From: a virus
Direction: 5' to 3' (one strand)
Virus record (IMG/VR): IMGVR_UViG_3300042874_000042
Location: 1-36,309 of that record
DNA: 36,309 bases
The notes beneath the pieces are model-generated. The model saw only the letters and a list, made by a program, of their open reading frames with translations, was not told where the DNA came from and searched no databases. Below are positions 6,943 through 25,089 of the stretch, piece by piece (position 1 is the first letter of the stretch; every line of letters starts with the position of its first letter). Made by a program: the position numbers and the translations under genes.

Positions 6943-7397
6943 AAAGAAATAACATATTGCAGACTATTAACATTATAGCAATCATTTTAATAATGGTTGC
7001 TATTGGTAATTATTTCTACAATAAGAAGCCTGAAACTATTTATTTAACAAAATATACAACTAAGATTGATACTATTGTTAAATTTAATACTGATACATTA
7101 ACTATCAAAATACCTACTTTAAAGACGCTTTACACGCATAAAATTGATACGATAATAATTACAGAGGCTTTTGAGAAATCGTTTGATACAACAACAGCAA
7201 ACGCTAAATTAGATGTAACGTATTACTTTCCGTCTGATACATTCAAAGTAAAGTTGCAAACAAAGATAACCGAAATATTAAGGACTGACACGATTAAGTA
7301 TGAGGTAATAGTCCCAAAGAAAGACGAATATTATTACTGGCGATTAGGTGGTATGGCAGCAGCTGGTTTTATCTTAGGAGTAATAATAGCAAAATGA
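6939..7397 (+). CDS. membrane protein with hydrophobic segments at both ends
   Basis: 152 residues. Segment one is about residues 8-26 (TINIIAIILIMVAIGNYFY) and segment two is at the extreme C-terminus (about 133-151: WRLGGMAAAGFILGVIIA). The region between is threonine-rich and predicted beta (YLTKYTTKIDTIVKFNTDTL), likely periplasmic. Proteins with this arrangement follow endolysins in several Bacteroidota phages and could bridge membranes like a spanin, but that is inference. The start overlaps the HExxH gene stop by ATGA, and the stop overlaps the methyltransferase start. Confidence 0.45.
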   Translation: MKRNNILQTINIIAIILIMVAIGNYFYNKKPETIYLTKYTTKIDTIVKFNTDTLTIKIPTLKTLYTHKIDTIIITEAFEKSFDTTTANAKLDVTYYFPSDTFKVKLQTKITEILRTDTIKYEVIVPKKDEYYYWRLGGMAAAGFILGVIIAK

Positions 7398-8710
7398 AAA
7401 AGTTAGGTATTCCATATATGGGCTCGAAGCGAGGCATTGCAAATGATATTGTTTCATTTATAAAGATGAGGCATCCAAATGCTAAATATTTTTATGATTT
7501 ATTTGGTGGTGGTGGAGCGGTAAGTTTTGCAGCGTTGGACTATTTTGATAATGTAATTTACAACGAGTTAAATACTGGGGTCGTTGAACTATTAAAGAAA
7601 ATATTGACAGATGGAGTTACCGAAGAGTTCTATCAGTGGGTAGATAGAGAAACCTTTCATAAGCATAAGGACTATGATACTTGGTTTGGTGGGTTAATTA
7701 AAACTTGTTGGAGTTTTGGAAATAAACAAAACGCATATATGTATGGAAATGAAATTGAAGAGTATAAACATCACGGGCATAAATTCATATTATATGATAA
7801 TGACGAATCGAAAGAACATATAAAAGATGTATTGAAAGATAGTTATTACTGGCACTTGGATAATCTACCAAAGTTTGAAAAATGGCAAGACAAAAGATTA
7901 TATTTTGTTGATATAATTCTGAAATTAGAAGCAATTAGAGTAACGAGGTTATACAGCGACTTGGTTTATAACGAATATAAGGATTTAAGTATTGACGAGT
8001 TTAAGGCTTTACGACAAAAAGAAATTTGTAGGACTATTGATAAGTATATCCCCGATATTCCAAAGAAGAATGGCAGAGGAATAGAAAGCAATAAATTGAG
8101 TGAATTGAAATATCTTCAACATCTTGAACACATTCAACGTCTTCAACACCTTGAACGAATTGATAAATTTGAAAGTCTTCAACGACTTAAAAATCTTGAA
8201 CACCTTCAACGGATTGAAAAACTTGAACAATTTAAGCAGATACAGCATATTGAACATCTTGGACGGATTGAACATCTTGAACATTTTCAACATCTCCAAC
8301 AACTCCAACATCTTGGACAGATTGAACACCTTGAAAATCTTAGACAAACTAAACAATTTACGTTGCTCAATCATAGTTATAACGAAGTGAAAATTACAAC
8401 ACCAATTGATGAAACAATTATTTACTTAGACCCGCCGTATAAAGACACGGGAAAATATCAGCACGATATAAACCACGATGAATTAATGGCATATATCAAA
8501 AATAGTAAATATCCGATTTACACATCGGGTTATAAAATGAATTTACCATCGGTTTGGAATGTAGAAAAACGTGTTTTGTTAAACAAAGTTAAAGCAAAAG
8601 TATCTAATGAAAATCTTTACATAAACGAAGCGGGTATTAAAAGTGCTGGAAAACGAGAAACAAAGCGGGCAAAAATGCAACTACAATTTAATTTCGGGAG
8701 TGCAGTATGA
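7394..8710 (+). CDS. D12-class (Dam-type) DNA adenine methyltransferase with leucine-repeat insert
   Basis: 438 residues. Family motifs are clear: PYMGSKRGIA at 7-16, DLFGGGGAVSF at 35-45 (SAM-binding motif I) and IYLDPPYKDTGK near 343-354 (catalytic motif IV, DPPY at 346-349). The enzyme transfers a methyl group from SAM to adenine N6, protecting phage DNA or altering recognition. About residues 238-322, between the target-recognition region and motif IV, form a low-complexity insert in which Leu/Ile/Phe recurs every third residue (QHLEHIQRLQHLERIDKFES). This makes the protein much longer than ordinary Dam (about 270-280). It overlaps both neighbours by 4 bp and sits within the late operon, not with the other DNA-modification gene at 32931. 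Confidence 0.85.
   Translation: MKKLGIPYMGSKRGIANDIVSFIKMRHPNAKYFYDLFGGGGAVSFAALDYFDNVIYNELNTGVVELLKKILTDGVTEEFYQWVDRETFHKHKDYDTWFGGLIKTCWSFGNKQNAYMYGNEIEEYKHHGHKFILYDNDESKEHIKDVLKDSYYWHLDNLPKFEKWQDKRLYFVDIILKLEAIRVTRLYSDLVYNEYKDLSIDEFKALRQKEICRTIDKYIPDIPKKNGRGIESNKLSELKYLQHLEHIQRLQHLERIDKFESLQRLKNLEHLQRIEKLEQFKQIQHIEHLGRIEHLEHFQHLQQLQHLGQIEHLENLRQTKQFTLLNHSYNEVKITTPIDETIIYLDPPYKDTGKYQHDINHDELMAYIKNSKYPIYTSGYKMNLPSVWNVEKRVLLNKVKAKVSNENLYINEAGIKSAGKRETKRAKMQLQFNFGSAV
8109..8363 (+). repeat. 9-nt-period tandem repeat inside the methyltransferase gene
   Basis: About 28 degenerate units of the form NNN-NTT-NAA (for example CATCTTGAA, CACATTCAA, CGTCTTCAA) run in frame and encode x-Leu/Ile/Phe-Glu/Gln triplets. 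The lack of stop-prone codons leaves two other frames open (8009-8374 minus, 8124-8390 plus), which are shadows. Gain or loss of 9-nt units would keep the frame. Confidence 0.8.
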
Positions 8711-9633
8711 AAATTGAAATAGCAAAAAATTTTATTAAAGAAAATGCTGATTTATCTAATATTGAAATCGCTCGTAGGTTAGTAAATGAACATTATCCTA
8801 ATGAAAACGTTGACGTTCTCCGAAGGTTAGTCGCTTTTATTAAGAGCGAAGACAATTACAATGAATTTACCGAATTTGAAGCAGCAGAAATGCCTGATAG
8901 TTGGTATTCTGAACCGAACCGATATGAATTAGAAGGTAAGGTCGCAGTCTTAAACGATATACACGTCCCTTTTCACGATAAATACGCACTAAATACAGCA
9001 ATAAATTACATTGAGAAATATAATCCTGATTATTTGCTTTTAAATGGTGATATAGGTGATTTTTATGCTAATAGTAGATTTGTTAAAGACCCTAATTTGA
9101 GAGATACAGCGAAGGAATTGTCTATGATTAATCAATTATTAGATTGGTTGCAGTCAAAATTTTCAAGGATTATTTACAAAGAAGGAAATCACGAGGCTCG
9201 GTTATTCGATTATATAGCATCAAAAGCCCCAGAATTAGGTAATTTAGAAGGTATTAAGTTAGATAGGCTACTTAAACTACAAGAAAGAAACATTACTTTC
9301 GTTAGCAATAGAGAAAGGATTAAAATAGATAAATTATCAGTTATTCACGGGAACGAAATCCCAGCGGGTGGTATGATAAATGTAGCAAGGACTAAGATAT
9401 TACGGGCGATGGGCAATGTTTTATTTGGTCATCACCACGTAACGCAAGATTTTACACAAAGAACGATTGACGATAAGGTAATAGGTTCTTGGGCAGTTGG
9501 TTGCTTGTGTGGATTGAGTCCAGAATATGCAAAATTTAATTCGTGGAATCACGGGTTTGCATTAGTGGAAACCTTGCAAGGTGGTGGTTTTGAAGTGCAA
9601 AACAAACGGATTATAAATAATAAAGTAATGTAA
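8707..9633 (+). CDS. calcineurin-like metallophosphoesterase
   Basis: 308 residues. All metal-binding motifs of the family are present: DIH at 84-86, GDIGD at 114-118, GNHE at 160-163, the histidine of VIHGNEIP near 216 and GHHH at 241-244. These enzymes use two metal ions to hydrolyse phosphomono- or diesters. The N-terminal 60 residues (IAKNFIKENADLSNIEIARR) resemble a small helix-turn-helix, suggesting nucleic-acid association. Phage members may act as nucleases or remove 5' or cyclic phosphates; the substrate cannot be read from the sequence. It overlaps the methyltransferase gene by 4 bp and is the last gene before the first non-coding repeat cluster. Confidence 0.8.
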   Translation: MKIEIAKNFIKENADLSNIEIARRLVNEHYPNENVDVLRRLVAFIKSEDNYNEFTEFEAAEMPDSWYSEPNRYELEGKVAVLNDIHVPFHDKYALNTAINYIEKYNPDYLLLNGDIGDFYANSRFVKDPNLRDTAKELSMINQLLDWLQSKFSRIIYKEGNHEARLFDYIASKAPELGNLEGIKLDRLLKLQERNITFVSNRERIKIDKLSVIHGNEIPAGGMINVARTKILRAMGNVLFGHHHVTQDFTQRTIDDKVIGSWAVGCLCGLSPEYAKFNSWNHGFALVETLQGGGFEVQNKRIINNKVM

Positions 9634-9734
9634 TCCAGTGGAAAGTTGAAAGTTAAAAGTCTATAAAGTTGAAAGTAAATTAGTTAGAAGTGAAAAGTTT
9701 ATAAAGTTGAAAGTTTATAAAGTATAAGGTTGAA
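9634..9734 (+). repeat. non-coding AAAGTTGAAAGT-type repeat cluster, left copy
   Basis: The 101-bp gap is made of overlapping copies of AAAGTTGAAAGT, AAAGTTTATAAAGT and similar. It contains AAAGTAAATTAGTTAGAAGT, which recurs with one change in the gap at 14883-14959. The two clusters bracket the fiber block. No promoter match is seen in it. Confidence 0.75.
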
Positions 9735-10028
9735 ATGATTGCAGGAAAATATAACATAACAGCGTATTTAAATAGAGATTATTACCAAATATTTACATTT
9801 GATATTAATATAAGTGCTTATACTTTTATTGGAGCGGTGGATAATAATGGTTCTGATGTTTATTTCACGATTATAAATATAGACAATAATAATATCGGCG
9901 TTAGTATGGATATAACAACGCTTAACAATTTCACTGCTGGTAGTTATAACTATGATATTAAGATGAATGACGGATTAAATAAGCAAGTAATTGAAGGTAA
10001 GTTTGTTATTTATAACACGGTATCATAA
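9735..10028 (+). CDS. beta-rich fiber/baseplate adaptor-like protein
   Basis: 97 residues, no named family recognised with certainty. The sequence KYNITAYLNRDYYQIFTFDI, then TFIGAVDNNGSDVYFTIINI and the ending SYNYDIKMNDGLNKQVIEGK resembles the small Ig-like N-terminal domains of phage upper-baseplate or receptor-binding proteins, which start with a 'G..f...' strand pair and finish with 'G.y.Y.i....g....l..G.f.I'. It is the first gene of the block bracketed by the repeat clusters, and the next gene starts at its stop codon (TAATG). Structural role inferred from place and fold pattern. Confidence 0.45.
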   Translation: MIAGKYNITAYLNRDYYQIFTFDINISAYTFIGAVDNNGSDVYFTIINIDNNNIGVSMDITTLNNFTAGSYNYDIKMNDGLNKQVIEGKFVIYNTVS

Positions 10029-10477
10029 TGGACATAACAGCGGTTGAAAATAGAATAAAGGTAGAGCCAAACGAAGAGGTCGTAAATATTACTTTTGGTG
10101 ATGTTGTTAGTTTAACTACAAGTGAAATAAAGACTATTACCGAAAACTATCAATGTGGTGAGGATATTGGGAGCGGAAAAGCGGTTTATTTGTCAAATAT
10201 CGGTAAAATTTATATGGCTGACAATAGCAATACTGATATAATTAACGCAATCGTTGGAGTTACAAAACAAGCGGGTTCAAGTGGTGATATTGTAGAAGTT
10301 GTAATTCAGGGCGAGGTTGGATATGTATTTGCCGACCGACCTGGAACTTACTATGTTTATCAAAATGGTTTGATGGATAACGCTCCACCCGCAACTGATG
10401 TAATTATAAGCGTTGGTAGGTATATTAGAAACGGGTATTTATTAGTAAATATTGGTAATTATATAATTAGAAATTAA
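10028..10477 (+). CDS. tail fiber/virion surface protein with beta domain
   Basis: 149 residues. After a short N-terminal helix, the part from about residue 40 reads YQCGEDIGSGKAVYLSNIGK, IVGVTKQAGSSGDIVEVVIQ, GTYYVYQNGLMDNAPP and VGRYIRNGYLLVNIG. This 'G.aVyl..gk...a.......iiGv......G..v.v...G.v' pattern is a beta domain found repeatedly in phage fibers and capsid-cementing proteins (DUF2190-like). Related versions are in the gene at 10499 and at the C-terminus of the protein at 16203. It probably forms part of the fiber shaft or a decoration at the tail tip. Confidence 0.5.
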   Translation: MDITAVENRIKVEPNEEVVNITFGDVVSLTTSEIKTITENYQCGEDIGSGKAVYLSNIGKIYMADNSNTDIINAIVGVTKQAGSSGDIVEVVIQGEVGYVFADRPGTYYVYQNGLMDNAPPATDVIISVGRYIRNGYLLVNIGNYIIRN

Positions 10478-10498
10478 TTTTAAATAAAAGGTAAGACA

Positions 10499-11011
10499 AT
10501 GGCAGAAAAATATTTGAAACAAGGCTTAACAGCAATAGAAGAAGTTGAAGCCAAAGCGTCCAGTGCAGGTGCTGGAGACGCTGGTAAAATCGTAGCATTA
10601 GACGGCACTGGCAAATTAGATACGACTTTAATGCCTTCGGGTGTTGGAGCGGATACATTAAGCGTGGTCGCCTCAGAGGCTTTATCGGCTGGTAATTTAG
10701 TAAATATCTTTGATGACGCTGGAACAACTAAGGCAAGAAAAGCGGACGCTACTGGTGGAGTTGCTAAAAAAGCAGACGGATATGTGTTGGCTGCTGTTAC
10801 AAGCGGTGCAAGTGCAACGGTTTATTTTGATGGAACTATAACTGGATTGACAGGCTTAACTGCTGGCTCTAATTATTATTTAAGCACAACAGCGGGTGGG
10901 ACTACAACAACAATTCCAACAGCGGCGACTAATATAGCACAACTTATAGGTAAGGCATTAAGCACGACCTCAATAAGTTTTGAACCCGGTGGAACTATAA
11001 TAAGAGCATAA
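10499..11011 (+). CDS. tail fiber/virion surface protein with beta domain
   Basis: 170 residues, rich in Ala, Thr and Gly. An N-terminal attachment-like segment (MAEKYLKQGLTAIEEVEAKA) is followed by GKIVALDGTGKLDTTLMPSG, a motif seen where phage fibers begin. The remainder is the same type of beta domain as in the preceding gene: SEALSAGNLVNIFDDAGTTK, ADGYVLAAVTSGASATVYFD, SNYYLSTTAGGTTTTIP and IAQLIGKALSTTSISF. An RBS-like AAAGGTAAG lies just upstream of the ATG. Likely a fiber or shaft protein; the binding partner is unknown. Confidence 0.55.
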   Translation: MAEKYLKQGLTAIEEVEAKASSAGAGDAGKIVALDGTGKLDTTLMPSGVGADTLSVVASEALSAGNLVNIFDDAGTTKARKADATGGVAKKADGYVLAAVTSGASATVYFDGTITGLTGLTAGSNYYLSTTAGGTTTTIPTAATNIAQLIGKALSTTSISFEPGGTIIRA

Positions 11012-11013
11012 AA

Positions 11014-11439
11014 GTGGCAAAAGTATTAAAAATAGATACGACTGGAATAGTAGAAACTAACGTGCAAGATACTCTTGTTAGTGGAACTAATATCAAAACT
11101 ATTAATTCAAATAGTTTGTTAGGTAGTGGTGATATTAATGTTTCTACTGAAAGCACGACTACTGGAACGAGTTTAACTATTAGTGGAGCGACTTACAATT
11201 TCCATTATATAACAATTAGTGCAAACGATTCGTTCAGTTTAAGTAATATTACTACAAATCAAATATACTATTTTATGATAACAAACAGCGGTGCGAGTGA
11301 AATTACAATCACGTTGCCAAATACGGCTGATGTAAGTAGTGCTGATACATTCACAATCGGAGCAAGTAAAGTAAAAGAAGTAAGTATGATTTACAATGGG
11401 ACTAATAGGTATTGGCAAATCAGTGAGGAATTAGCGTGA
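11014..11439 (+). CDS. tail fiber protein (GTG start)
   Basis: 141 residues starting with GTG at 11014, 2 bp after the previous stop. The N-terminus VLKIDTTGIVETNVQDTLVS, then NSLLGSGDINVS is a common phage fiber motif ('inGnsLLGsGdi.v'). The rest is beta-rich: FHYITISANDSFSLSNITTN and VKEVSMIYNGTNRYWQISEE, which resembles short knob-like domains at fiber ends. The stop overlaps the GTG start of the next gene (GTGA), so the two are probably translated together and may assemble together. Confidence 0.55.
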   Translation: MAKVLKIDTTGIVETNVQDTLVSGTNIKTINSNSLLGSGDINVSTESTTTGTSLTISGATYNFHYITISANDSFSLSNITTNQIYYFMITNSGASEITITLPNTADVSSADTFTIGASKVKEVSMIYNGTNRYWQISEELA

Positions 11440-13568: not shown

Positions 13569-14882
13569 ATGTTAATTAAAAAACTTAAAACAACAAACGG
13601 AAGAGATTATTTAGAAGTTTTAAACGCTTCGGAGGTGGTCGTCGATGTTACGAACTTTGATAATAATTTAAGTTCAACTGATGTAGATTTGCAAACCGCA
13701 TTAGAAACGATTGATGAAATTTCTGCAAGTGGTGGTGAAACGGTAAATGTTGAAACACTTACAGCAAACAAAACCTTGACGGCTTCTGATGCTACGATAC
13801 AAATACTACAAACGGGCTCGGCAAATAGAATTGTAAATTTACCAGATGGATTAACTATCGGACAAAAATTCGTTATTTGGAACAATAATGAATATACAAG
13901 TAGTTATTATTTAGATGTTAAATATGTAATTACAAAAGATAAAATTTATTCTCAAAAGAAAACTGAATTTTATTGGGACGGAACGAATTGGTATTATAGT
14001 AACGAATCGAATGTAGCAATAGGTAATAGTGCAAATGTCAATATTGGTGGCGTAGCAATAGGCTATAATGCAAACGGAAATAATTCTGGAGCAGTATTGG
14101 GCTATAATGCGAATGGAGATACCGCTGGAGCAGTGGTAGGCTTTTATGCAGATGGAAATTATGAAGGTGCAGCGGTAGGTTATGGAGCAAATGGGAGTAG
14201 CAATGGAGCATCAGTAGGATATTATGCAAATAGTAATAATTATGGAGTTGCATTAGGCTATGGAGCAGATGGTTATAATCAAGGAGCGGTAGTCGGTAGT
14301 TATGCAAATGGGGTTGGTTATGGAGTTGCATTAGGTCACGAAGCAATCACTAACTACAAACAAAGTGGGACGGTTGCAATAGGAACTCATTCACAAGCGG
14401 AGCGTAATAGAGAAATCGTTTCAACTGCTTCAAGTTCAGCTTTGAATAAAGCACAGATGACTATCCAGAAATATAAAGAAACTGATATACCTAACAATAC
14501 AAGCACGTGGGTTGAATTATTCGTGGACGCTTCTTCAAGTAGGTTAGTATTACTAACCAATTCAGTTTATAATTTCTTCGGTGAGTTAAATTGTTATAGG
14601 ATAGCAACGAACGATAATATTTTATATCCTCTTGGAGCGGTTAAGGGTTGGCAATTTACTGGCTTGATTAAGAACGTGGCTGGAGTAGTTGCATTAGTTG
14701 GAACACCTACTATAACTTTATTAGGTTGCGACACTGATGGTGATATAGGTAATGTAGATATGCAAATAGAGGCTGACGATATAAATGATAGTTTGAAATT
14801 ATCGGTTTATATTCCGCTTGGAAGTGGTGGGCAAACTTATAGATTTAGTGGCAATATTTTTGCAAGTGAAACGAGGATGTAA
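13569..14882 (+). CDS. tail fiber with YadA-head-like 13-residue repeats
   Basis: 437 residues. N-terminal fiber-type region (TNFDNNLSSTDVDLQTALET; ETVNVETLTANKTLTASDAT), followed by a globular segment with TEFYWDGTNWYYSNE near 138. Residues about 149-275 contain a run of 13-residue units such as VAIGYNANGNNSG, AVLGYNANGDTAG and AVVGFYADGNYEG, resembling the left-handed beta-roll repeats of trimeric adhesin (YadA/Hia) heads. The C-terminal 160 residues (NTSTWVELFVDASSSRLVLL, GWQFTGLIKNVAGVV, YRFSGNIFASETRM) look like a terminal beta-sandwich knob. Probably a trimeric side fiber or second receptor-binding protein. Confidence 0.65.
   Translation: MLIKKLKTTNGRDYLEVLNASEVVVDVTNFDNNLSSTDVDLQTALETIDEISASGGETVNVETLTANKTLTASDATIQILQTGSANRIVNLPDGLTIGQKFVIWNNNEYTSSYYLDVKYVITKDKIYSQKKTEFYWDGTNWYYSNESNVAIGNSANVNIGGVAIGYNANGNNSGAVLGYNANGDTAGAVVGFYADGNYEGAAVGYGANGSSNGASVGYYANSNNYGVALGYGADGYNQGAVVGSYANGVGYGVALGHEAITNYKQSGTVAIGTHSQAERNREIVSTASSSALNKAQMTIQKYKETDIPNNTSTWVELFVDASSSRLVLLTNSVYNFFGELNCYRIATNDNILYPLGAVKGWQFTGLIKNVAGVVALVGTPTITLLGCDTDGDIGNVDMQIEADDINDSLKLSVYIPLGSGGQTYRFSGNIFASETRM
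14052..14324 (+). repeat. seven 39-nt (13-codon) repeats in the YadA-like fiber gene
   Basis: Units start at 14052, 14091, 14130, 14169, 14208, 14247 and 14286, with a partial eighth from 14325. Each encodes a variant of xVxGYxANGxxxG. The periodic glycine codons leave a minus-strand frame open (14038-14346), which is a shadow. Confidence 0.85.
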
Positions 14883-15465: not shown

Positions 15466-16203
15466 ATGCCAACAATGGATAAAAAGGTTATCCTACAAGG
15501 GACACCATTAGTATGGGTTCACGAGATTACTGGTGCAAGTGAAGACGCAATCACTGCATTATGGAAATTTGACAATGCTCAAAGCGTGGAGGCAACTTTA
15601 AAGTTGGCTTCAAGTGCTACAAGCGACACCGAACAAATTGACTTAGGTAGAGCAGACGGGGCGACTATTAAATATGACAAAAATACTCTTGCTATTAGTG
15701 GAACAGACGAAACGGACGTTACACCCGCTGCAAGTTCAACAGACGCTACTGGTTTAGGAGTTGTTAAATTTACCTTGAACGAGGCAGATTACGACTCGAC
15801 TACTTGGACTGAATTTGTTGCAGAATTAAAAAGTAAAATGAATAACAAGTTCTTTATTACGATTGGAACTGGTCAATCACTTTACTCAATGAATAACACA
15901 AGTTACAAAAAACCCGATGGGTTTATTCATATGATAGGTAAAATAAACGCTGATGTAACTTTGAGTTGGGCTGGTAACACTCCAACAACAATAGCATTAG
16001 AATTTGTTTCATATAAAGCAACTGCATTAGTGGACGCTGATATTACTGCTTTATATGATGGTTCGACTTTAAATGGTATCGTATGGAAATTAGGTGGAAC
16101 TACTATAACAATTTACCCACCTGTAATAACTGCTGGTAATGCTACTTCATTGCATACAAGTGGCGATATTGTAGTTGTGCAGAATATCACTACTTGGGCA
16201 TAA
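15466..16203 (+). CDS. major tail (tube) protein candidate
   Basis: 245 residues with an excellent ribosome binding site (AAGGAGG 6 nt before the ATG). Beta-rich, with little Lys/Arg clustering: KKVILQGTPLVWVHEITGAS, DTEQIDLGRADGATIKYDKN, EFVAELKSKMNNKFFITIGT, GFIHMIGKINADVTLSWAGN. The repeated 'GxxV.L....' strands and the conspicuously strong ribosome binding site fit the tail tube subunit, which is made in many copies. It lies directly before the large tail protein and the chaperone/tape-measure group. No unmistakable family motif; a smaller virion component is the alternative. Confidence 0.55.
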   Translation: MPTMDKKVILQGTPLVWVHEITGASEDAITALWKFDNAQSVEATLKLASSATSDTEQIDLGRADGATIKYDKNTLAISGTDETDVTPAASSTDATGLGVVKFTLNEADYDSTTWTEFVAELKSKMNNKFFITIGTGQSLYSMNNTSYKKPDGFIHMIGKINADVTLSWAGNTPTTIALEFVSYKATALVDADITALYDGSTLNGIVWKLGGTTITIYPPVITAGNATSLHTSGDIVVVQNITTWA

Positions 16204-18491
16204 TGAAATTTAAGCAATCATATACTATTTATGAAAGTGATTTCGGAAGCCGTGAGGTAATCGTTGTAATTAGTGATAGTTACAGCGACTTATTCACGGC
16301 GACTGATGGTAATTTAGTTAGCAATATCCAGATTAAAAACGTAAAACAAGAGTTAAACATTGAGGAAAATAGTTTTGCCATTGATAGTTTTCAATTTACA
16401 ATTCGTGAAACCTCTTCAATAACTGAAAATGAAAAGAATTGTTTAAGTTTTGTTTTGCACGCTTCGGATTTAAAAAGGTTTCGTTTCATTGGAGTATTTT
16501 TTGATAGTGTAAGTGCTGACAATAAATTATTTGCTGGACAAATTTCAAGTAAAATTAGTGGCGATGATATTTATTACACTTCAAGTATTTGGAGTATTGA
16601 AGGAACACAGCGAGAATATAGTTTCACGGCATTAAGTTTTGATATTAGTATTTTAGAAAAGGTTTCATTTAATTCAAACATTGAGAAAGAAGACGGAACT
16701 TTTGTAAGTGGAGTTTATGAAAGAATAGACGCAGACGCAAATTTTATTGATTATTGTGGCTTTTCAAGTAAAGCGAGTTTTTTCTTGGCTAATAGAACTT
16801 ATTTTACATATCCAATCGCTCCGATTTACAATGTAATACGAGCATATTTGGCAAAGGCGGGCGATATATTAACGGAGTTGTTAGGTTATAGCGTCCCTCT
16901 TGTGTTAGAAGAAAGTGTTTTGGACTTCAAAGTTAATACGATGGCTTATGATTTTACGAGTAATATTAACTATCATACATATTGCACCGCTGAACAAATT
17001 GTTTCAACTACTAAATATAATGCAGAAATTAAGTTAGACGATGGCTTATGGATACATAGAGGCTTTATTCGTTCAAGTCTAACTGGTCATAAAAATGCGG
17101 ATTACGAAACCGATATGAGCTTCGAACAATTTGATAACATTGCAGAATTTTTGAGTTCCATTGCTAAAAGTTTGGGTTGTTTTGTAAGGATTACTGAAAC
17201 CGCTGGTTGTTATTACTTTAAATTTGTTAGTAGAGGTTCGATGGTTGAAAGCGATGAAACTTCATTAATAGGTTTCAAAGAGGGCTCTATTGATACAAGT
17301 TCGGTATTAGTTAAAGAAGGTAATGAATATTTCTCTAAATCTACTTACTGGACTGCTGACGGCGTCGACCTTTTAGATATAGATAGAGATAAACACGAAA
17401 CATCGGAAAAATTGGAAAAAATAGGTAATAAAATAGCTGAAGCTGAAAAGAAAAAAACTGAATTTGTTCGACTACTTTTCTCTACTGCTCCCGTATTAAG
17501 AGCAAAATGGTATTATGCAGGCGAGGTAATACTAATGATACCTATTAATGTTCTAAATGGACACGACACATTAATAGAGGCATACACGAATGCAAGTTAT
17601 GAACCTATCTTCTACAACACACTTGAAGTTGAAGAAGTTTTAACTACAACTTTATATATTAAAAACCAAGAAGTGCCGAAAGGGACTTGGACAAATGTTT
17701 ATAGACCTGCATACAATATTAGTGTAAATGTAAATAATACTGAATATGAATTTAACACAATTACGGATTATGTAAATTTTTTGATTGGTAGAGAAAAGCA
17801 ATATTATGAAACTGAAAGAAATTTAACTATTCCTTATTGGAACGGGTTCAGAAAAGACAGCGTTGATAGTTGGAAAAATCTCAAATTAGGTGCAAAATTT
17901 AACGAAACTATAAATGTAAGAGATTACACGGGCGGGGTTTGGAGCGAAAGCACTATTACAAAAACTTACATTATAACAAGTATTGAGTGGAGTTTGGAAA
18001 AGCCAGAGGTTAAGATTAAAGGGCAATTAAGTGAAAAATTTTCTTTTATAACACCTTCGGCAACAACAGCATTAGTTGAAAGTTTTTCAGCAGACCCAAA
18101 AACTGGAGCAGAATTATCGGACGATATTGTCAGCGGAGTAGCATATTCGGACATTACTAAATATCAAGCCGTTTCAATGCTATCAAATGGTCAGTTCGTT
18201 CCATCTACTCCAGCTTTATACGCAACGTTGGCTGGAATTGCTTTAAGCGATGCCTTAGCTGGTGAAAACTTCTATTATCAAATCAATGGTAATATAAACA
18301 ATGATTTCGGTTTCACTAATATAGGTTTCGAGTTAAGAGTAGATACTGGATTAGCAACAGACTGGAACTATATAGATGACTGGTCGGGTTTTGATAATAC
18401 CGATTACAAACTTTTAACGGTTGGCAGAGTGCTTACAGAATCGAGTTTCAAAATAACATTAAATGAATATATATTAAATGAACCAATATGA
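16203..18491 (+). CDS. large tail protein, possible baseplate hub
   Basis: 762 residues from the ATG at 16203 (TAATG with the tube gene); the in-frame TTG at 16194 is less likely. The N-terminal 400 residues contain alternating beta stretches (QELNIEENSFAIDSFQFTIR; GVFFDSVSADNKLFAGQISS; SLTGHKNADYETDMSFEQFD) as in hub or distal tail proteins. A charged helix near residues 395-415 (SEKLEKIGNKIAEAEKKKTE) follows. The last 130 residues (SDITKYQAVSMLSNGQFVPS, LAGIALSDALAGENFYYQIN, LLTVGRVLTESSFKITL) are the same beta-domain type found in the fibers at 10028 and 10499. It is probably part of the tail tip and may carry a fiber-like end. Position upstream of the tape measure gene is unusual for a hub. 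Confidence 0.5.
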   Translation: MKFKQSYTIYESDFGSREVIVVISDSYSDLFTATDGNLVSNIQIKNVKQELNIEENSFAIDSFQFTIRETSSITENEKNCLSFVLHASDLKRFRFIGVFFDSVSADNKLFAGQISSKISGDDIYYTSSIWSIEGTQREYSFTALSFDISILEKVSFNSNIEKEDGTFVSGVYERIDADANFIDYCGFSSKASFFLANRTYFTYPIAPIYNVIRAYLAKAGDILTELLGYSVPLVLEESVLDFKVNTMAYDFTSNINYHTYCTAEQIVSTTKYNAEIKLDDGLWIHRGFIRSSLTGHKNADYETDMSFEQFDNIAEFLSSIAKSLGCFVRITETAGCYYFKFVSRGSMVESDETSLIGFKEGSIDTSSVLVKEGNEYFSKSTYWTADGVDLLDIDRDKHETSEKLEKIGNKIAEAEKKKTEFVRLLFSTAPVLRAKWYYAGEVILMIPINVLNGHDTLIEAYTNASYEPIFYNTLEVEEVLTTTLYIKNQEVPKGTWTNVYRPAYNISVNVNNTEYEFNTITDYVNFLIGREKQYYETERNLTIPYWNGFRKDSVDSWKNLKLGAKFNETINVRDYTGGVWSESTITKTYIITSIEWSLEKPEVKIKGQLSEKFSFITPSATTALVESFSADPKTGAELSDDIVSGVAYSDITKYQAVSMLSNGQFVPSTPALYATLAGIALSDALAGENFYYQINGNINNDFGFTNIGFELRVDTGLATDWNYIDDWSGFDNTDYKLLTVGRVLTESSFKITLNEYILNEPI

Positions 18492-18901
18492 CAACAATTT
18501 TTAAAAATGTATTATTTAGATACGAAACGACACCTTTAACAAGTTTAGTTTATGACAGCACAGCAACAAACCAAAAAACTTTTAATTGTATAATGATAGA
18601 TTACAACCCTAATGTTGCAATTGATAAGGGTCGTTTAATGAATGGTAAGGGATTTGCACACTCATTGTATAATTTTTTAAGTTGGGATATTTCAATCGGA
18701 GCGGACGAAATTGACCAAACGAATTTAGACTTTTTATCGGACTTTTGGACTGCTGGTTATAAATACATTTTGCCATCGGTTTCTACTTCTTACTCAGGGA
18801 ATTATAAATTAGTTGGAACTGATGGCGGGAAATTACCCGTTGAAAGATTAGATGATTTAGTATTTTTGAAAGAAATTAAATTCAACTTTGAGGAATTATG
18901 A
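18488..18901 (+). CDS. tail protein of unknown role
   Basis: 137 residues, ATGA overlap with the large tail gene and with the next gene. Landmarks include FNCIMIDYNPNVAIDKGRLM, SLYNFLSWDISIGADEIDQT and NLDFLSDFWTAGYKYILPSV, with beta and short helix alternation. No named family recognised. The gene is locked between large tail protein and the next tail gene by 4-bp overlaps, which suggests coordinated expression and a tail completion or tail tip role. Confidence 0.5.
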   Translation: MTTIFKNVLFRYETTPLTSLVYDSTATNQKTFNCIMIDYNPNVAIDKGRLMNGKGFAHSLYNFLSWDISIGADEIDQTNLDFLSDFWTAGYKYILPSVSTSYSGNYKLVGTDGGKLPVERLDDLVFLKEIKFNFEEL

Positions 18902-19509
18902 TTAAGGCTTTTTATAGATTGCTATCATCTAATATGAATAATTATCACGATGGAATGGCAATAATGCCAATTCGTGCATTAAGTATCTATACAGACGCTG
19001 GAGACGGATATGAATACTTACAAATAGAAAAGGAAAGTAGTTATAACATTAAGCCTATAAGCGTTAAAAATCATTATGGTAAAAGTGTTGTTTATGCCTA
19101 TCAGGTTGATTTTACAATTTATGTATTTAGTAATAGGTTTGATACGGTAGAAGGTGGAACAGACCATTTCTTTTTTGACGATTTAGACGCTTTATTGGGA
19201 CAGGATTACAAGGTAAAAATCTTTTTAGGAAACGAAGAGCCCGGATTTAGTGGCTGGTGGTTAGATTACGACCCTAATTTAACGCTCCCGCTTAGTGATG
19301 ATATATTAACACAAATGACAAACGCAACAAGTGGTATGACGATGGATTTAAGAAAATCAGTATCAGTTACTTATGAAATTGAGAGCGTTGAATATCGTCC
19401 GAGATTAAAGTTCGTTGGTAGTGGTTATATAAGGTCGTTAGTAGATAATGCTAATTATGACGAAGACTCGACACTTATAATTAAATCATATTTAAGCGTC
19501 TTCAAATAG
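18898..19509 (+). CDS. tail protein of unknown role
   Basis: 203 residues, starting with ATGA overlap. The sequence AIMPIRALSIYTDAGDGYEY, VYAYQVDFTIYVFSNRFDTV, DHFFFDDLDALLGQDYKVKI and KVKIFLGNEEPGFSGWW is acidic and beta-rich. No known family motif. It ends 58 bp before the tail chaperone start, within the tail operon, so it is probably a tail component such as a terminator or minor tail protein. Confidence 0.5.
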   Translation: MIKAFYRLLSSNMNNYHDGMAIMPIRALSIYTDAGDGYEYLQIEKESSYNIKPISVKNHYGKSVVYAYQVDFTIYVFSNRFDTVEGGTDHFFFDDLDALLGQDYKVKIFLGNEEPGFSGWWLDYDPNLTLPLSDDILTQMTNATSGMTMDLRKSVSVTYEIESVEYRPRLKFVGSGYIRSLVDNANYDEDSTLIIKSYLSVFK

Positions 19510-19596
19510 ATGGATTACATTAAAAAACTTTATAAATATTTTGATAACAAATTAATAGGTGCAGTTTATGAGCGATTTATTAGAAATAATAGATAA
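19510..19596 (+). CDS. possible 28-residue ORF between tail genes
   Basis: ATG at 19510 directly follows the TAG stop of the previous gene and opens MDYIKKLYKYFDNKLIGAVY then ERFIRNNR. The last 29 bp overlap the tail chaperone start in another frame. The peptide is basic and amphipathic. Its chief effect may be to carry ribosomes to the chaperone start by translational coupling. Being so short, it may not encode a functional product. Confidence 0.3.
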   Translation: MDYIKKLYKYFDNKLIGAVYERFIRNNR

Positions 19597-20032
19597 TAAG
19601 AAAATTGAATTTGAGCATTCAGGGAAAAAATTCATTTATGATTTTAACGAATTAAGTCTTGAACAAGCGGAAATGTGTCGAGAGATTGGAACTTTCAAAC
19701 TCCAACAAGTTGAAAACGCTGTTGATGTGGACGTGCAAAAATTCATTAATAGCAAAGGTGCGGAGTGGCGACTAATGCTTTTAAGTTATTTAATCTTAGA
19801 AGTTAGAGGCGAAAAGGTTTTGCCTTTTGAAAGAAGTAAAATTCCAGATTACGAAAAGTTTATCAAAGGGATTAAAATGATAGACTACAAGAAAATGGAG
19901 GCAGCGATAGACGATTTTTTTACAAATATCGGTTTATCTCCGATTACATCAATATTACAGCAAAGCATAAAGAGGAAGCAAACAATAGAAACGTTATTAC
20001 CTTTGCTGATGAAAACTCAAATGACTTTATAA
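19568..20032 (+). CDS. tail assembly chaperone, short form (G-like)
   Basis: 154 residues from the ATG at 19568; the GTG at 19559 is an upstream alternative. Landmarks: MSDLLEIIDNKKIEFEHSGK, FIYDFNELSLEQAEMCREIG, EWRLMLLSYLILEVRGEKVL, DYKKMEAAIDDFFTNIGLSP. The name rests on position and on coding structure: it is just upstream of the tape measure gene and its end overlaps a second open frame at a perfect -1 slippery heptamer (19915-19921). This is the arrangement of lambda gpG/gpGT and its equivalents, which hold the tape measure protein during tail assembly. Residue-level similarity to lambda G is not evident, as is normal for this family. Confidence 0.7.
   Translation: MSDLLEIIDNKKIEFEHSGKKFIYDFNELSLEQAEMCREIGTFKLQQVENAVDVDVQKFINSKGAEWRLMLLSYLILEVRGEKVLPFERSKIPDYEKFIKGIKMIDYKKMEAAIDDFFTNIGLSPITSILQQSIKRKQTIETLLPLLMKTQMTL
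19915..19944 (+). promoter_or_regulatory. -1 ribosomal frameshift signal: T TTT TTT plus hairpin
   Basis: Seven T at 19915-19921 lie in the phase X XXY YYZ relative to the chaperone frame (GAT TTT TTT ACA). Six nt downstream is a small inverted repeat, ATCGG at 19928-19932 and CCGAT at 19940-19944 with a 7-nt loop, placed where a stimulatory hairpin would act. Slippage by -1 enters the frame that ends at 20217. Confidence 0.75.
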
Positions 20033-20217
20033 GAGAACTTGAAAAGAAACAAAGATTATATAATGATGATGAATTACAATTAAGATTATTAAGAAGAAGG
20101 TATGATATTTGGCAGACTTGGTTTTTAGACAAAGACGTTAAAAAACAGAAAGAAGTTTTAACATATCCTTTTGTTGAAATAACCTTGCAAGTTGAAAGAT
20201 TAATCAAAAGCCTTTAA
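19921..20217 (+). CDS. tail assembly chaperone, frameshift extension (GT-like)
   Basis: This is the -1 frame, open from 19876 to the TAA at 20215-20217. It has no usable start codon close to its beginning, so it is most likely read only after slippage at 19915-19921, giving about 118 residues of the short form followed by 98 new ones (about 216 in all). The extension starts YKYRFISDYINITAKHKEEA and continues with DENSNDFIRELEKKQRLYND, LQLRLLRRRYDIWQTWFLDK, and YPFVEITLQVERLIKSL. The charged helical T domain is where lambda gpGT meets the tape measure protein. It ends 27 bp before the tape measure start. Confidence 0.7.
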   Translation, partial: YKYRFISDYINITAKHKEEANNRNVITFADENSNDFIRELEKKQRLYNDDELQLRLLRRRYDIWQTWFLDKDVKKQKEVLTYPFVEITLQVERLIKSL

Positions 20218-20230
20218 CAAGGCTTTTTTT
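20206..20230 (+). terminator. Rho-independent terminator between chaperone and tape measure genes
   Basis: AAAAGCCTT at 20206-20214 and AAGGCTTTT at 20219-20227 form a perfect 9-bp stem around a TAAC loop, followed by more T (run ends 20230). The stop codon of the frameshift product lies in the loop. The structure fits an intrinsic terminator or attenuator before the tape measure gene. Confidence 0.7.
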
Positions 20231-20244
20231 ACATAGGTTGAAAT

Positions 20245-23200
20245 ATGAAATATGAAATGATATTGGATTTTCTGATAAATGCAAAAACAAACCCAGAAAG
20301 TCTTAGAAATGCACAAAAAACAATTGAACAAGCATTAAGTGCAGCCGCTCCGAAACTTAATTTAGACGATAAACAAATTAAGCAAGTAATGGGCGACTTT
20401 AACAAACTTCTTAATATGACCGAAGTCGAATTAGGTGATTTAAAAAAATCCTTAGCTGGAATGGAATTATCGGATAATTTACAAAAGGATTTTCAAAACT
20501 TAATTAAAGAGTTTGAGAATGTAGATAATATTAACTTTGACAGCCTCAATAAAGCCATTGACGACTTAAACTTTGATGAATTAGGTAAAATATTCACGGA
20601 CTTAGAAAAGGTTGCAGAAAGCACTAATTTTGAAGACCAAATCAAAGGAATGGCAAAAGCATACACAGAGGCAGAAACAAAAGTTAGACAGCAATTAGAT
20701 ACTCAAAAGAAAGCCCTGAAACAAATGGAACTAACAGGGCAAACTGGAACTGAAAGTTATAAAAGATTAAAAAATGAAATTGCTGGAGCGGAGAAAGAAC
20801 TTAAAAATTTAGGTGGCAGTGCTGGTGAAACTAAATCAGTAATGGATAAAATGGCGACTTTTGGACTTGCAGCACAAGGTATTCAACAAGTTGCTGATAG
20901 TTTAGGTATGTTCACCTCCGATTATATCGGTTTGGATACAGCAACCCAAAAAATTAAAACATTAGGTGGGACTGCGAAGGAACTTGCTCCTAATTTTAGA
21001 GAAATGGCGATTGAAATGTCCAAAAATTTACCTATTGCCTCAACAGAAATAGCAAACGCAACTTATGAAGCACTATCGGCTGGTATTAATGCAAGTGAGA
21101 AAGATATTTCTGCATTTATGGAAGCAAGTAGCAAGTTAGCAGTTGGTGGAGCGGAAAGCGTTGGTAATTCTGTAAATGTTTTGAGTAGTTTAATCAATGC
21201 TTATGGATTAAAGGCAACAGACGCAACTAAGGTATCAGATGAATTATTTACGACCATCAATTTAGGTAAAACAAATTTACCTGAATTGTCTGCAAGTTTA
21301 TCACAAGTCATTCCAACAGCAGCAGGGCTGGGGGTAGAGTTTAAAAATGTTGGAGCGTCTTTGGCATTAATGACCGCTAACGGCATTCCTACAGCCCAAG
21401 CAACAACTAAATTAAACGCTTTATTCGTAGAAATGCAAAAACCGGGTGCTGAACTTACAAAGACTTTGAGTGCCGCTGGTGTTAGTGTTGATAGTTTGAA
21501 AAAGCAAATAAGTAGTGGCGATTTTTATGGTGCATTGGATAGTATGAAAGGGGCTTTTGACAAAGCTGGAGTAAGTGCAACGCAGGCTTTTTCAAGCGTG
21601 GAATCGGGTGCAGCGTTCCAGACTTTAACGAAAGATATGGGCAAATTAAGAGGAACAATCGATTCGTTTGCAAATAGTGCTGGTGCTACTGAAAGTGCTT
21701 ACGGCGATATGAGCGACGGCATTGAAAATAAAATGCAAAGTTTAAAAAATGCAATATCAAATATTTTCATAGGTATTAATGATGTTTTCGGGTCAGGTTT
21801 TGCAACGACCGTTGGAGCAGCACAGCAATTAGCCCCGATTATGATAACCTTGCAAGGTTTGGGCTCTATTGTCCCAGCGGGCACTGGAAAGAAAATAACA
21901 GAAATGGCAACCGCAATTGTTAGCAAATTAGTGCCCGGCTTAATAATGCAAACAGCAGCAACAGAAGGGGCTGAAGCAGCACAAACAAGGTTAAATCTAA
22001 AAGTGTTAATGAACCCTTACGTCCTTGCAGTTGCGGGCATTGTAGCATTAGTGGCATCTTTACATTTCCTATCAGACGCTTTACACGAAACAGCAGCAGA
22101 AAGAGCGGAAGAGGTCAAGGGTGAGCAGGCGGCAGTCGATAGTCAAATCCAATTAGCAGAAAAACAAGCACAAATTACAAAATCAAAGGCTGGCTTAATT
22201 GATAGTTTTAAGAACGAAGGCGAGGCAGCTATGAATAACGCCGATTTACTTCTAAAACTTTCACAAGCATACCCGGGAGTAATTGACAAAACGAAATCAT
22301 ACTCGGAAAACTTGGAAAAGTTGAAAGGTGCTGGCGATACTACTCACAAAGAACTGGATAAATTAGGTAATGAATTAATTAAGTTAGACGCCCAAAAGTT
22401 GGAACTTGATTATAAAGTCGCAAAAGTTAATGTAGAAGTAGATAAGGAAGGTATTGAAGACAGCCTTACAGACGCTTTTGGGACTTGGGGACTAACAGAC
22501 GCAACCGAGTGGTTGTTTGGCACAAGTGGAGCAAGAGCAGACGCTGAGGCAATGATTAAGCCTTTCACGGACGCAATCTATAAGGCAAGCGATTCGGAAG
22601 AACTTAACAAAGCTGCATTAGATATGCAAATGGCAATTTGGAACAATCCAGAATTTGCAGAATTAGATGACAAACAAAAACAAATTGCAGTTGAGAAAGT
22701 CCAAAAAATGGCAGATAGTCAGTCAAAAGTTATTCAAGCGAATAATGAAAAAATGGCAAAACAATCTACATTATTATCGTCCCAAGTTAAGCAAGGTTTA
22801 ATATCAGAAAGTCAAGCGGTTGAACATCTTAAAAAACAATACGGGCTCTCCGATACTGAGGCTAAAAAACTTTTGAACACCCAAGAAGATAACACGGCAG
22901 AAGCACATAAATTATTAAAGAATGTAGAAGATATTACTGGTAGTTTTGAAAAGGCAAAAACAGCGGCGACAGGTATAGTTGCGGGAGCGACTTCAAAAGC
23001 CACTGATTATGCTTTACAAATTAAAAATATTCAAAAAATGATTAGCGACCCATCGTATCGACCCGAAGGAGTTAGTCAAAGCGAATTAGAAAAACAATTA
23101 CAAGATTATAAGAAGTTATATGACGCTGAAATTAAACAAGGTAAATTAGAGCAACAAAACGTTAAAACATTAGAAAAAATCGAGGCTCAGGTTAAAAATG

Positions 23201-25089
23201 CAATCGACCCGCAAGTAAAGGAAAAGCAAGAGAAAGATTATTTGGCGGAACTACAAAAGCAAGTTTCAGAAAAAGAAAAGGCAGCAGCACAGGATAAAAT
23301 CCTTTTCGATATCGCTCAAAAACAAACAATCTTAGGAGAAAAAAGAAGCCGTAATGAATATGATGATTTTTTATTAAATCAAAAAAATTTAGAACTACTT
23401 AACACACAGAATAAAGAATTTTTAGAAATCTTAGAACAGCAAGGAATTGAAGTTGAAAAAATTGACGGCAAAACCGAATTGAAGTTCAATAAAAAAATGA
23501 GTTCCACGCAAAAGGAAAACGTTAGTAATTATGTTAAAGACTACTTACTCAATATACAAAACGAAATGCAAACAACAGAAATTGCTGGTAAGGAAATTAC
23601 TCTTAATGCACAATTTGAGTTACAAGAAGAACAAGCAAAATTAGACGAACAAATAAGAAAAACAGAATTTGAAAAAATTAAAATACAAATTGAGTTGGGA
23701 ACTGCAAATATTGAAGATGTAGAGCCTATTGTAAAATATTATGCAGATTTAAGAGAACAAGCAAAAATTGAAGCCGACAAACTTAATAAAGAACTGGAAG
23801 ATTTAGACGCTGAAACTAAGTCTAAAATTGCTTTTGCAAATGGCAACGAAGTATTAATTGCAACTATTACGACCGCTTATGCACATCAAAAAACGGCTTT
23901 ATTAAAAAACATATCCGAGCAAACTACTATTATTGAAAACAATCAAAATGAAATTGATAGTATTTACAAAGATAGTTTTGCAGTCCGCAATAAGATGATA
24001 GATGAATGGTATGCAAAAGAAAATGAGGCACTTGATAATGAAATCGGAATTATGAAAACTAATAGAGATTTAGTTAAATCATTTAATACTGATGGAGCAG
24101 ACCAAAAAACTTATGATGACAAAATTGCTAATTTAGATAATTTGAAAGATAAAGAACTTAGTAATATTGTCTATTTAGATAAAATGAAAATCCTTTCAAC
24201 GAAAGATATAGAACAAAGAAAATTGGATATTGAGGAAGAGTTCCAAGCTAAAAGATTAGAAGCAGAGAAAGAATTTCAAGGACGTAAAAGGATAATTGAA
24301 TTAATTGGTAATGGTCAAGATTTAGAAATTGAAAGAAAGTCGGGCGAGGCAAAAGCCCGATTAGATGTAGAAAATACAGAGCAACAAATACAGGTTTTAA
24401 AAGATATGCGGGCTAAGTTAGGTGACGCCTTTTCTATTGAAGACACTAAGCAACTTGCAGAGTTGGAAAAAACACTAATCAAAAATCAAACAATATTAGA
24501 AGAGAAAGGCGGTTATTTAAATTTAGCAGCGGAGGAACTTGGCAAATCTATAAACGAGTCTTTAACTAATATGTTTGCAGGTGATAGTGAAGCAGCAGGC
24601 AATTCACTTAAAAAGTTCTTTTTAGTTATTAGTGGAGTAATGGTTCAAGGTTTAACGGACTATCTAAATAAAGTTATATTAGAGTGGTTTTTAAAAGCAA
24701 TAGCATTCTCTCCAGCTGACCCTTTAACAAAGTTATTAATCGCCCCCGTCCTATACGGGTTAATTTCAGCGTCTGTGAAAGCAATAGCAATGCCATTACT
24801 GAAACCGCTATCATTTTCGTCTGGTGGTGTTATTGATAGTAATTCGCTTATTCAAGTTGGAGACGCTTCAATTTTAGGTGGTGAGAATAAAGAATGGATA
24901 TTTAGAAACGACCAATTAAAAACGTTGGTTGCTTCAATAGTCCAAGCCTCAAATTATAGTTTGTCAAGCAAGTTAGATAATTTGACAAATATCTTAGCAA
25001 CACAAAACTTAGAAACAAGAATTAAGGGAGAGGATATTTATTTAAGTATGAAACGAACACAATATAATAATAAGTTAAGAAGTTATTAA
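20245..25089 (+). CDS. tail tape measure protein, TP901 type
   Basis: 1614 residues. The TP901-type core lies around residues 200-420: LGMFTSDYIGLDTATQKIKT, EMAIEMSKNLPIASTEIANA, TYEALSAGINASEKDISAFM, INLGKTNLPELSASLSQVIP, IPTAQATTKLNALFVEMQKP. A hydrophobic stretch near 585-605 (NPYVLAVAGIVALVASLHFL) and a second near 1500-1545 (WFLKAIAFSPADPLTKLLIA) are the usual membrane-interacting parts. The long middle is charged coiled coil (about 1000-1450). The protein fixes tail length and enters the host envelope during DNA injection. At the usual 1.5 angstrom per residue, 1614 residues predict a tail near 240 nm, so a long-tailed siphovirus. It is the last gene of the late operon. Confidence 0.9.
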   Translation: MKYEMILDFLINAKTNPESLRNAQKTIEQALSAAAPKLNLDDKQIKQVMGDFNKLLNMTEVELGDLKKSLAGMELSDNLQKDFQNLIKEFENVDNINFDSLNKAIDDLNFDELGKIFTDLEKVAESTNFEDQIKGMAKAYTEAETKVRQQLDTQKKALKQMELTGQTGTESYKRLKNEIAGAEKELKNLGGSAGETKSVMDKMATFGLAAQGIQQVADSLGMFTSDYIGLDTATQKIKTLGGTAKELAPNFREMAIEMSKNLPIASTEIANATYEALSAGINASEKDISAFMEASSKLAVGGAESVGNSVNVLSSLINAYGLKATDATKVSDELFTTINLGKTNLPELSASLSQVIPTAAGLGVEFKNVGASLALMTANGIPTAQATTKLNALFVEMQKPGAELTKTLSAAGVSVDSLKKQISSGDFYGALDSMKGAFDKAGVSATQAFSSVESGAAFQTLTKDMGKLRGTIDSFANSAGATESAYGDMSDGIENKMQSLKNAISNIFIGINDVFGSGFATTVGAAQQLAPIMITLQGLGSIVPAGTGKKITEMATAIVSKLVPGLIMQTAATEGAEAAQTRLNLKVLMNPYVLAVAGIVALVASLHFLSDALHETAAERAEEVKGEQAAVDSQIQLAEKQAQITKSKAGLIDSFKNEGEAAMNNADLLLKLSQAYPGVIDKTKSYSENLEKLKGAGDTTHKELDKLGNELIKLDAQKLELDYKVAKVNVEVDKEGIEDSLTDAFGTWGLTDATEWLFGTSGARADAEAMIKPFTDAIYKASDSEELNKAALDMQMAIWNNPEFAELDDKQKQIAVEKVQKMADSQSKVIQANNEKMAKQSTLLSSQVKQGLISESQAVEHLKKQYGLSDTEAKKLLNTQEDNTAEAHKLLKNVEDITGSFEKAKTAATGIVAGATSKATDYALQIKNIQKMISDPSYRPEGVSQSELEKQLQDYKKLYDAEIKQGKLEQQNVKTLEKIEAQVKNAIDPQVKEKQEKDYLAELQKQVSEKEKAAAQDKILFDIAQKQTILGEKRSRNEYDDFLLNQKNLELLNTQNKEFLEILEQQGIEVEKIDGKTELKFNKKMSSTQKENVSNYVKDYLLNIQNEMQTTEIAGKEITLNAQFELQEEQAKLDEQIRKTEFEKIKIQIELGTANIEDVEPIVKYYADLREQAKIEADKLNKELEDLDAETKSKIAFANGNEVLIATITTAYAHQKTALLKNISEQTTIIENNQNEIDSIYKDSFAVRNKMIDEWYAKENEALDNEIGIMKTNRDLVKSFNTDGADQKTYDDKIANLDNLKDKELSNIVYLDKMKILSTKDIEQRKLDIEEEFQAKRLEAEKEFQGRKRIIELIGNGQDLEIERKSGEAKARLDVENTEQQIQVLKDMRAKLGDAFSIEDTKQLAELEKTLIKNQTILEEKGGYLNLAAEELGKSINESLTNMFAGDSEAAGNSLKKFFLVISGVMVQGLTDYLNKVILEWFLKAIAFSPADPLTKLLIAPVLYGLISASVKAIAMPLLKPLSFSSGGVIDSNSLIQVGDASILGGENKEWIFRNDQLKTLVASIVQASNYSLSSKLDNLTNILATQNLETRIKGEDIYLSMKRTQYNNKLRSY

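Follow-up and report, generated by a model that had tools for sequence, protein, structure and literature searches.

Gene order and reading frames ahead of the tape measure gene

The window analysed here is the whole of the virus record IMGVR_UViG_3300042874_000042, a metagenome-derived single contig of 36,309 bases with a G+C content of 30-37% across its length. The locus of interest lies between a possible tail protein gene and a large tape measure gene, all on the plus strand:

18898-19509, plus strand: possible major tail protein, assigned by position only, the gene order being as in lambda and SPP1
19568-20032, plus strand: gpG-like tail assembly chaperone of 154 aa (open reading frame, codon usage, location immediately ahead of the tape measure gene)
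19568-20217, plus strand: predicted gpGT-like frameshift product of 216 aa (118 + 98) with the junction DDFF-YKYR
19876-20217, plus strand: open -1 frame without stop, without ATG or GTG, with gene-like codon usage
19897-19901, plus strand: Shine-Dalgarno-like GGAGG, separated from the heptamer by 13 nt, noticed after the fact
19915-19921, plus strand: slippery heptamer T TTT TTT (sequence GAT TTT TTT ACA, rarity, and a T7 run at the matching residue of locus L035, see below)
19928-19944, plus strand: 5-bp hairpin 3' of the heptamer, probably due to chance (shuffle comparison, z = -0.59)
20245-25089, plus strand: tail tape measure protein of 1614 aa (phrog_991, 2.7e-54; PF10145, 7.8e-32)

The first gene of the pair, here called G, starts with ATG at 19568 and stops at 20030-20032; an alternative start at GTG 19559 is possible. 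The -1 frame is free of stops over 113 codons (19876-20217), and the part that would be read after a slip, here called T, comprises 98 codons (19921-20214) followed by a stop at 20215-20217. Neither ATG nor GTG was found in the -1 frame from 19876 to 20217, and its sole TTG leaves 10 codons, which confirms the first-pass annotation in its statement that this frame is open and lacks a usable start. The product lengths it had given, about 216 against 154 residues, likewise follow from the coordinates, and across the predicted junction the fusion reads D115 D116 F117 F118 Y119 K120 Y121 R122. The stretch that belongs to T only (20033-20214) has a codon-usage score of 0.056 per codon in the -1 frame; for reference, the genes of the window score 0.114 +/- 0.087 per codon and their wrong frames -0.15 +/- 0.08. 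The -1-frame stop lies 27 nt upstream of the tape measure gene. A -1 shift would explain the 185-nt unannotated gap and would supply the correct second product.

G and T have no significant match in Pfam, PHROGs, PDB or phage records, and against the Pfam Phage_TAC_* and PHROG tail assembly chaperone profiles both remain below the cut-off. Because no profile matched, G/GT is not filed under any chaperone sequence family. The product of 18898-19509 gave no family or structure match, and the single-sequence structure model of G (mean pLDDT 42) was too poor for a fold search. No confirmed relative came from IMG/VR scans with single proteins (G, the tape measure in full, the tape measure core, and the gene 16194-18491), and phage records searched by tblastn with G and T yielded none either. 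Relatives reached via the major capsid protein (L002-L009) are 72-73% identical in that protein. The contigs with a related capsid or Sak4-like protein fail to reach or to match the tail genes of the window, and a capsid scan of genomes returned nothing; no close relative of these tail genes was found in the IMG/VR scans or among the relatives via capsid and Sak4-like proteins.

The heptamer

In the frame of G the T run at 19915-19921 is read as GAT TTT TTT ACA, i.e., its phase is X XXY YYZ, as a -1 shift requires, and the claim that it is correctly phased for slippage is borne out by the reading frames. Among the other genes of the window (10,872 codons) an in-phase T TTT TTT occurs twice and any in-phase X XXY YYZ heptamer 91 times. 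By our own arithmetic the chance of encountering one within the 52-codon overlap of the two frames is about 1.4% for T7 and about 40% for any heptamer; given 91 in-phase heptamers per 10,872 codons, the presence of some heptamer in the overlap is unremarkable. A slip at 19915-19921 leads into 98 codons of -1 frame before a stop is met, against 10 and 0 codons at the other two T7 sites, and the -1 reading extends 185 nt beyond the zero-frame stop of G. Frameshifting at the in-phase T7 sites 5471 and 5602 was considered and rejected; there a stop ends the -1 frame almost immediately.

Loci that share the tape measure

The comparison was based on the tape measure because the recovered capsid-related contigs stop short of the tail genes. 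The tape-measure core was aligned with nine named phage records, leading to 80 IMG/VR loci, to which loci from bacterial genomes were later added. The layout test comprised 69 loci after crude dereplication and scored the combination of a -1 extension with an A6/T6-type in-phase heptamer. This combination is present in 34 of 67 last genes before the tape measure versus 10 of 512 other genes from the same loci. By our own arithmetic about 96% of these cases would be real, provided that the window gene comes from that population. Together with the T7 run at the matching residue of L035, these counts support the original proposal of a G/GT-type pair ahead of the tape measure gene.

Several comparators match known chaperone families, i.e., phrog_4888 (L071 type), Phage_TAC_5 (L014) and Phage_TAC_19 (L013), and the T parts of such recognised chaperones form separate families without function. 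When the heptamers of all distinct comparator fusions are tallied, AAAAAAC, AAAAAAG and AAAAAAA dominate. T-type heptamers are T6C in L121 and L019, T7 in L092, and T6G in L124 and L125. The window adds a U7 Phe-Phe heptamer at a site which is dominated by A6-type heptamers among the fetched loci. Between L124 and L125, mismatches concentrate at third codon positions, those of the G frame ahead of the heptamer and those of the -1 frame beyond it, a switch that is expected if both parts are translated; among 199 genomes the kin of L124 and L125 are just those two. By hhalign and blastp the window fusion scores at chance level against the comparator fusions, save for a marginal result with L035.

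L035 (IMGVR_UViG_3300022885_000076, an uncultured phage) was chosen for inspection by its score over the full-length tape measure, which is the highest of all; the match runs in stretches over residues 199-1571. Its G gene occupies positions 4-546, and a -1 frame is open from 306 to 692 without an early start. The heptamer at 354-360 lies in GAT TTT TTT TAT after residue 119, compared with 118 in the window, and encodes Asp-Phe-Phe. An unforced alignment of the two fusions places DFF on DFF, with a local z of 3.4 (4 of 500 shuffles as good) and a semi-global z of 3.7 (5 of 1000 shuffles as good). Comparator L012 reaches a z similar to that of L035, and G or T alone give z of 0.7-1.7. This marginal similarity therefore suggests homology between the window and L035 fusions but does not prove it. 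L035 resembles the window in having the closest full-length tape measure and GAT TTT TTT at the matching residue, yet differs from it by a T run of eight, by the marginal similarity of G/GT and by an additional gene.

The additional gene of L035 (689-1126) encodes 145 aa and separates the T frame from the tape measure gene; the window yielded no counterpart.

Lambda, SPP1 and a proposed mechanism

Lambda, SPP1 and many other long-tailed phages are well known for this arrangement, and the window is a divergent uncultured case. As with lambda gpG/gpGT a chaperone gene is followed by the tape measure gene, and a -1 shift late in G would give access to the T frame. Lambda slips at G GGA AAG, which differs from the T7 of the window. 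The earlier statement that the layout matches lambda G/GT without evident sequence similarity stands: order and layout agree, and there is no family match. Membership of the window locus in the lambda G/GT-type class is supported by gene order, layout and analogy. The fusion is the minority product in lambda, with gpG:gpGT at about 30:1, and is predicted in the window; in lambda, the binding partner of G is the tape measure and that of T the tail-tube protein (PMC5009743). When gpG or the slippery sequence is mutated in TP901-1, proper tails are not made (PMC4493119).

SPP1 17.5/17.5* is linked by a putative -1 shift at UUUUUUC (PMC6316719). The likeness consists of a Phe-Phe heptamer, of a shared part of 112 residues compared with 118 in the window, and of a longer product whose end lies a short way upstream of the tape measure gene, gene 18 in SPP1 (PMC6316719). 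The two products measure 173 and 297 aa in SPP1, where the heptamer is UUUUUUC, against 154 and 216 aa predicted for the window with its UUUUUUU, and no sequence similarity between SPP1 17.5/17.5* and the window pair is shown.

Taken as a whole, the T7 locus very probably represents a G/GT-type tail chaperone pair of a long-tailed phage, generated by a programmed -1 shift. The layout, the phase, the lack of a start, the gene-like codon usage and the recurrence of the layout in relatives are shown here; slippage at T7, its efficiency and the chaperone roles of G and GT are inferred. Most ribosomes would finish the 154-aa G-like protein at 20032. A minority would slip back on T TTT TTT by one base, a move that allows the two Phe tRNAs of the P- and A-sites to re-pair perfectly one base upstream; the next codon in the -1 frame would be UAC, and reading would continue to 20217 to give the 216-aa G-T fusion. 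On the lambda model, the G part would coat the tape measure protein, the T part would recruit tail-tube subunits, and a fixed ratio of G to GT would be required. Points that speak against this reading include the weakness of U_UUU_UUU in E. coli, the lack of a significant downstream structure, and the failure of G and T to match any family model or solved structure. In E. coli the shiftiness of U_UUU_UUU is much weaker than that of A_AAA_AAG (PMC5009743). A weak site would suit a minority GT product. The locus belongs to a divergent uncultured phage group without a chaperone family model; the general picture of tail assembly is unchanged.

Alternative explanations

Instead of the ribosome, RNA polymerase might slip on T7 and add one U, such that part of the transcripts carries U8. 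The protein would be identical (D F F Y K), and because an extra U gives the same protein a junction peptide alone cannot separate the mechanisms. T7 is a homopolymer and L035 even has eight T, but seven T are short for efficient polymerase slippage. For other split genes, among them those of IS elements, spa13 and Thermus dnaX, polymerase slippage is accepted as an alternative, whereas the lambda G/GT shift is translational (PMC5009743); further, most counterparts carry AAAAAAC/AAAAAAG-like heptamers and SPP1 carries UUUUUUC, and we consider transcriptional slippage as the source of the fusion very unlikely. It is similarly improbable that transcriptional slippage on T7 determines the ratio of G to GT, either alone or jointly with ribosomal slippage, with L035 as a second case.

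An assembly error or a true indel would mean that the genuine sequence has eight T and a single continuous 216-aa gene, or that the gene was broken by mutation. The window is one metagenome-derived contig and the site is a homopolymer. If an Illumina-type platform was used, T7 is short for an error of that kind. Where the tape measure is shared, loci commonly show a clean -1 heptamer together with a two-frame overlap at this site, which speaks against an error or indel; we consider this reading very unlikely. A separate T gene started within the -1 frame, for which ATT, ATA and ATC codons are present, or a non-coding 185-nt gap is hardly credible, considering that there is no ATG or GTG, that the lone TTG leaves 10 codons and that the gap agrees with the -1 frame in its codon usage.

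Candidate stimulatory elements

For the preferred reading, a programmed ribosomal -1 shift, possible stimulatory elements were considered on both sides of the heptamer. The 5-bp hairpin noted in the first-pass annotation exists and begins 6 nt after T7, yet it is not significant: at -4.8 kcal/mol (z -0.59) it is matched by 54 of 200 shuffles. As a stimulator it was rejected, being insignificant against shuffled sequence, and the shuffle test revealed no significant 3' RNA structure for a frameshift cassette at T7. Upstream, GGAGG at 19897-19901, which is absent from the first-pass annotation, is a candidate stimulator that we noticed after the fact; GGAGG occurs 11 times on the plus strand of the window, and about half of the listed gene starts carry a GGAGG-like element.

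A perfect 9-bp inverted repeat, AAAAGCCTT-TAAC-AAGGCTTTT, followed by TTT, is located at 20206-20227 (-9.1 kcal/mol). It overlaps the stop of T just 5' of the tape measure start and is terminator-like on the minus strand; it could serve as an attenuator of transcription into the tape measure gene.

Other features of the window

Locus L099 carries three minus-strand genes at 6977-11163, between parts which match the right and the left end of the window. They encode the terminase large subunit, the portal and a minor head/DNA pilot-like protein. None of the three was seen in the window, which is therefore probably a permuted genome and incomplete, lacking roughly 4 kb. The segment 31177-32023 is a long stretch without a convincing gene; it contains T8, T8, T10 and A8 runs, and neither an Rfam family nor a tRNA was found in it. 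Finally, two adjacent genes of locus L004 (8942-11606) match the window gene 13569-14882 (38% and 36%), with a 14954-like gene between them. They represent a duplicated, variable module, possibly for receptor binding or a fibre, with a weak match to a depolymerase C-terminus.
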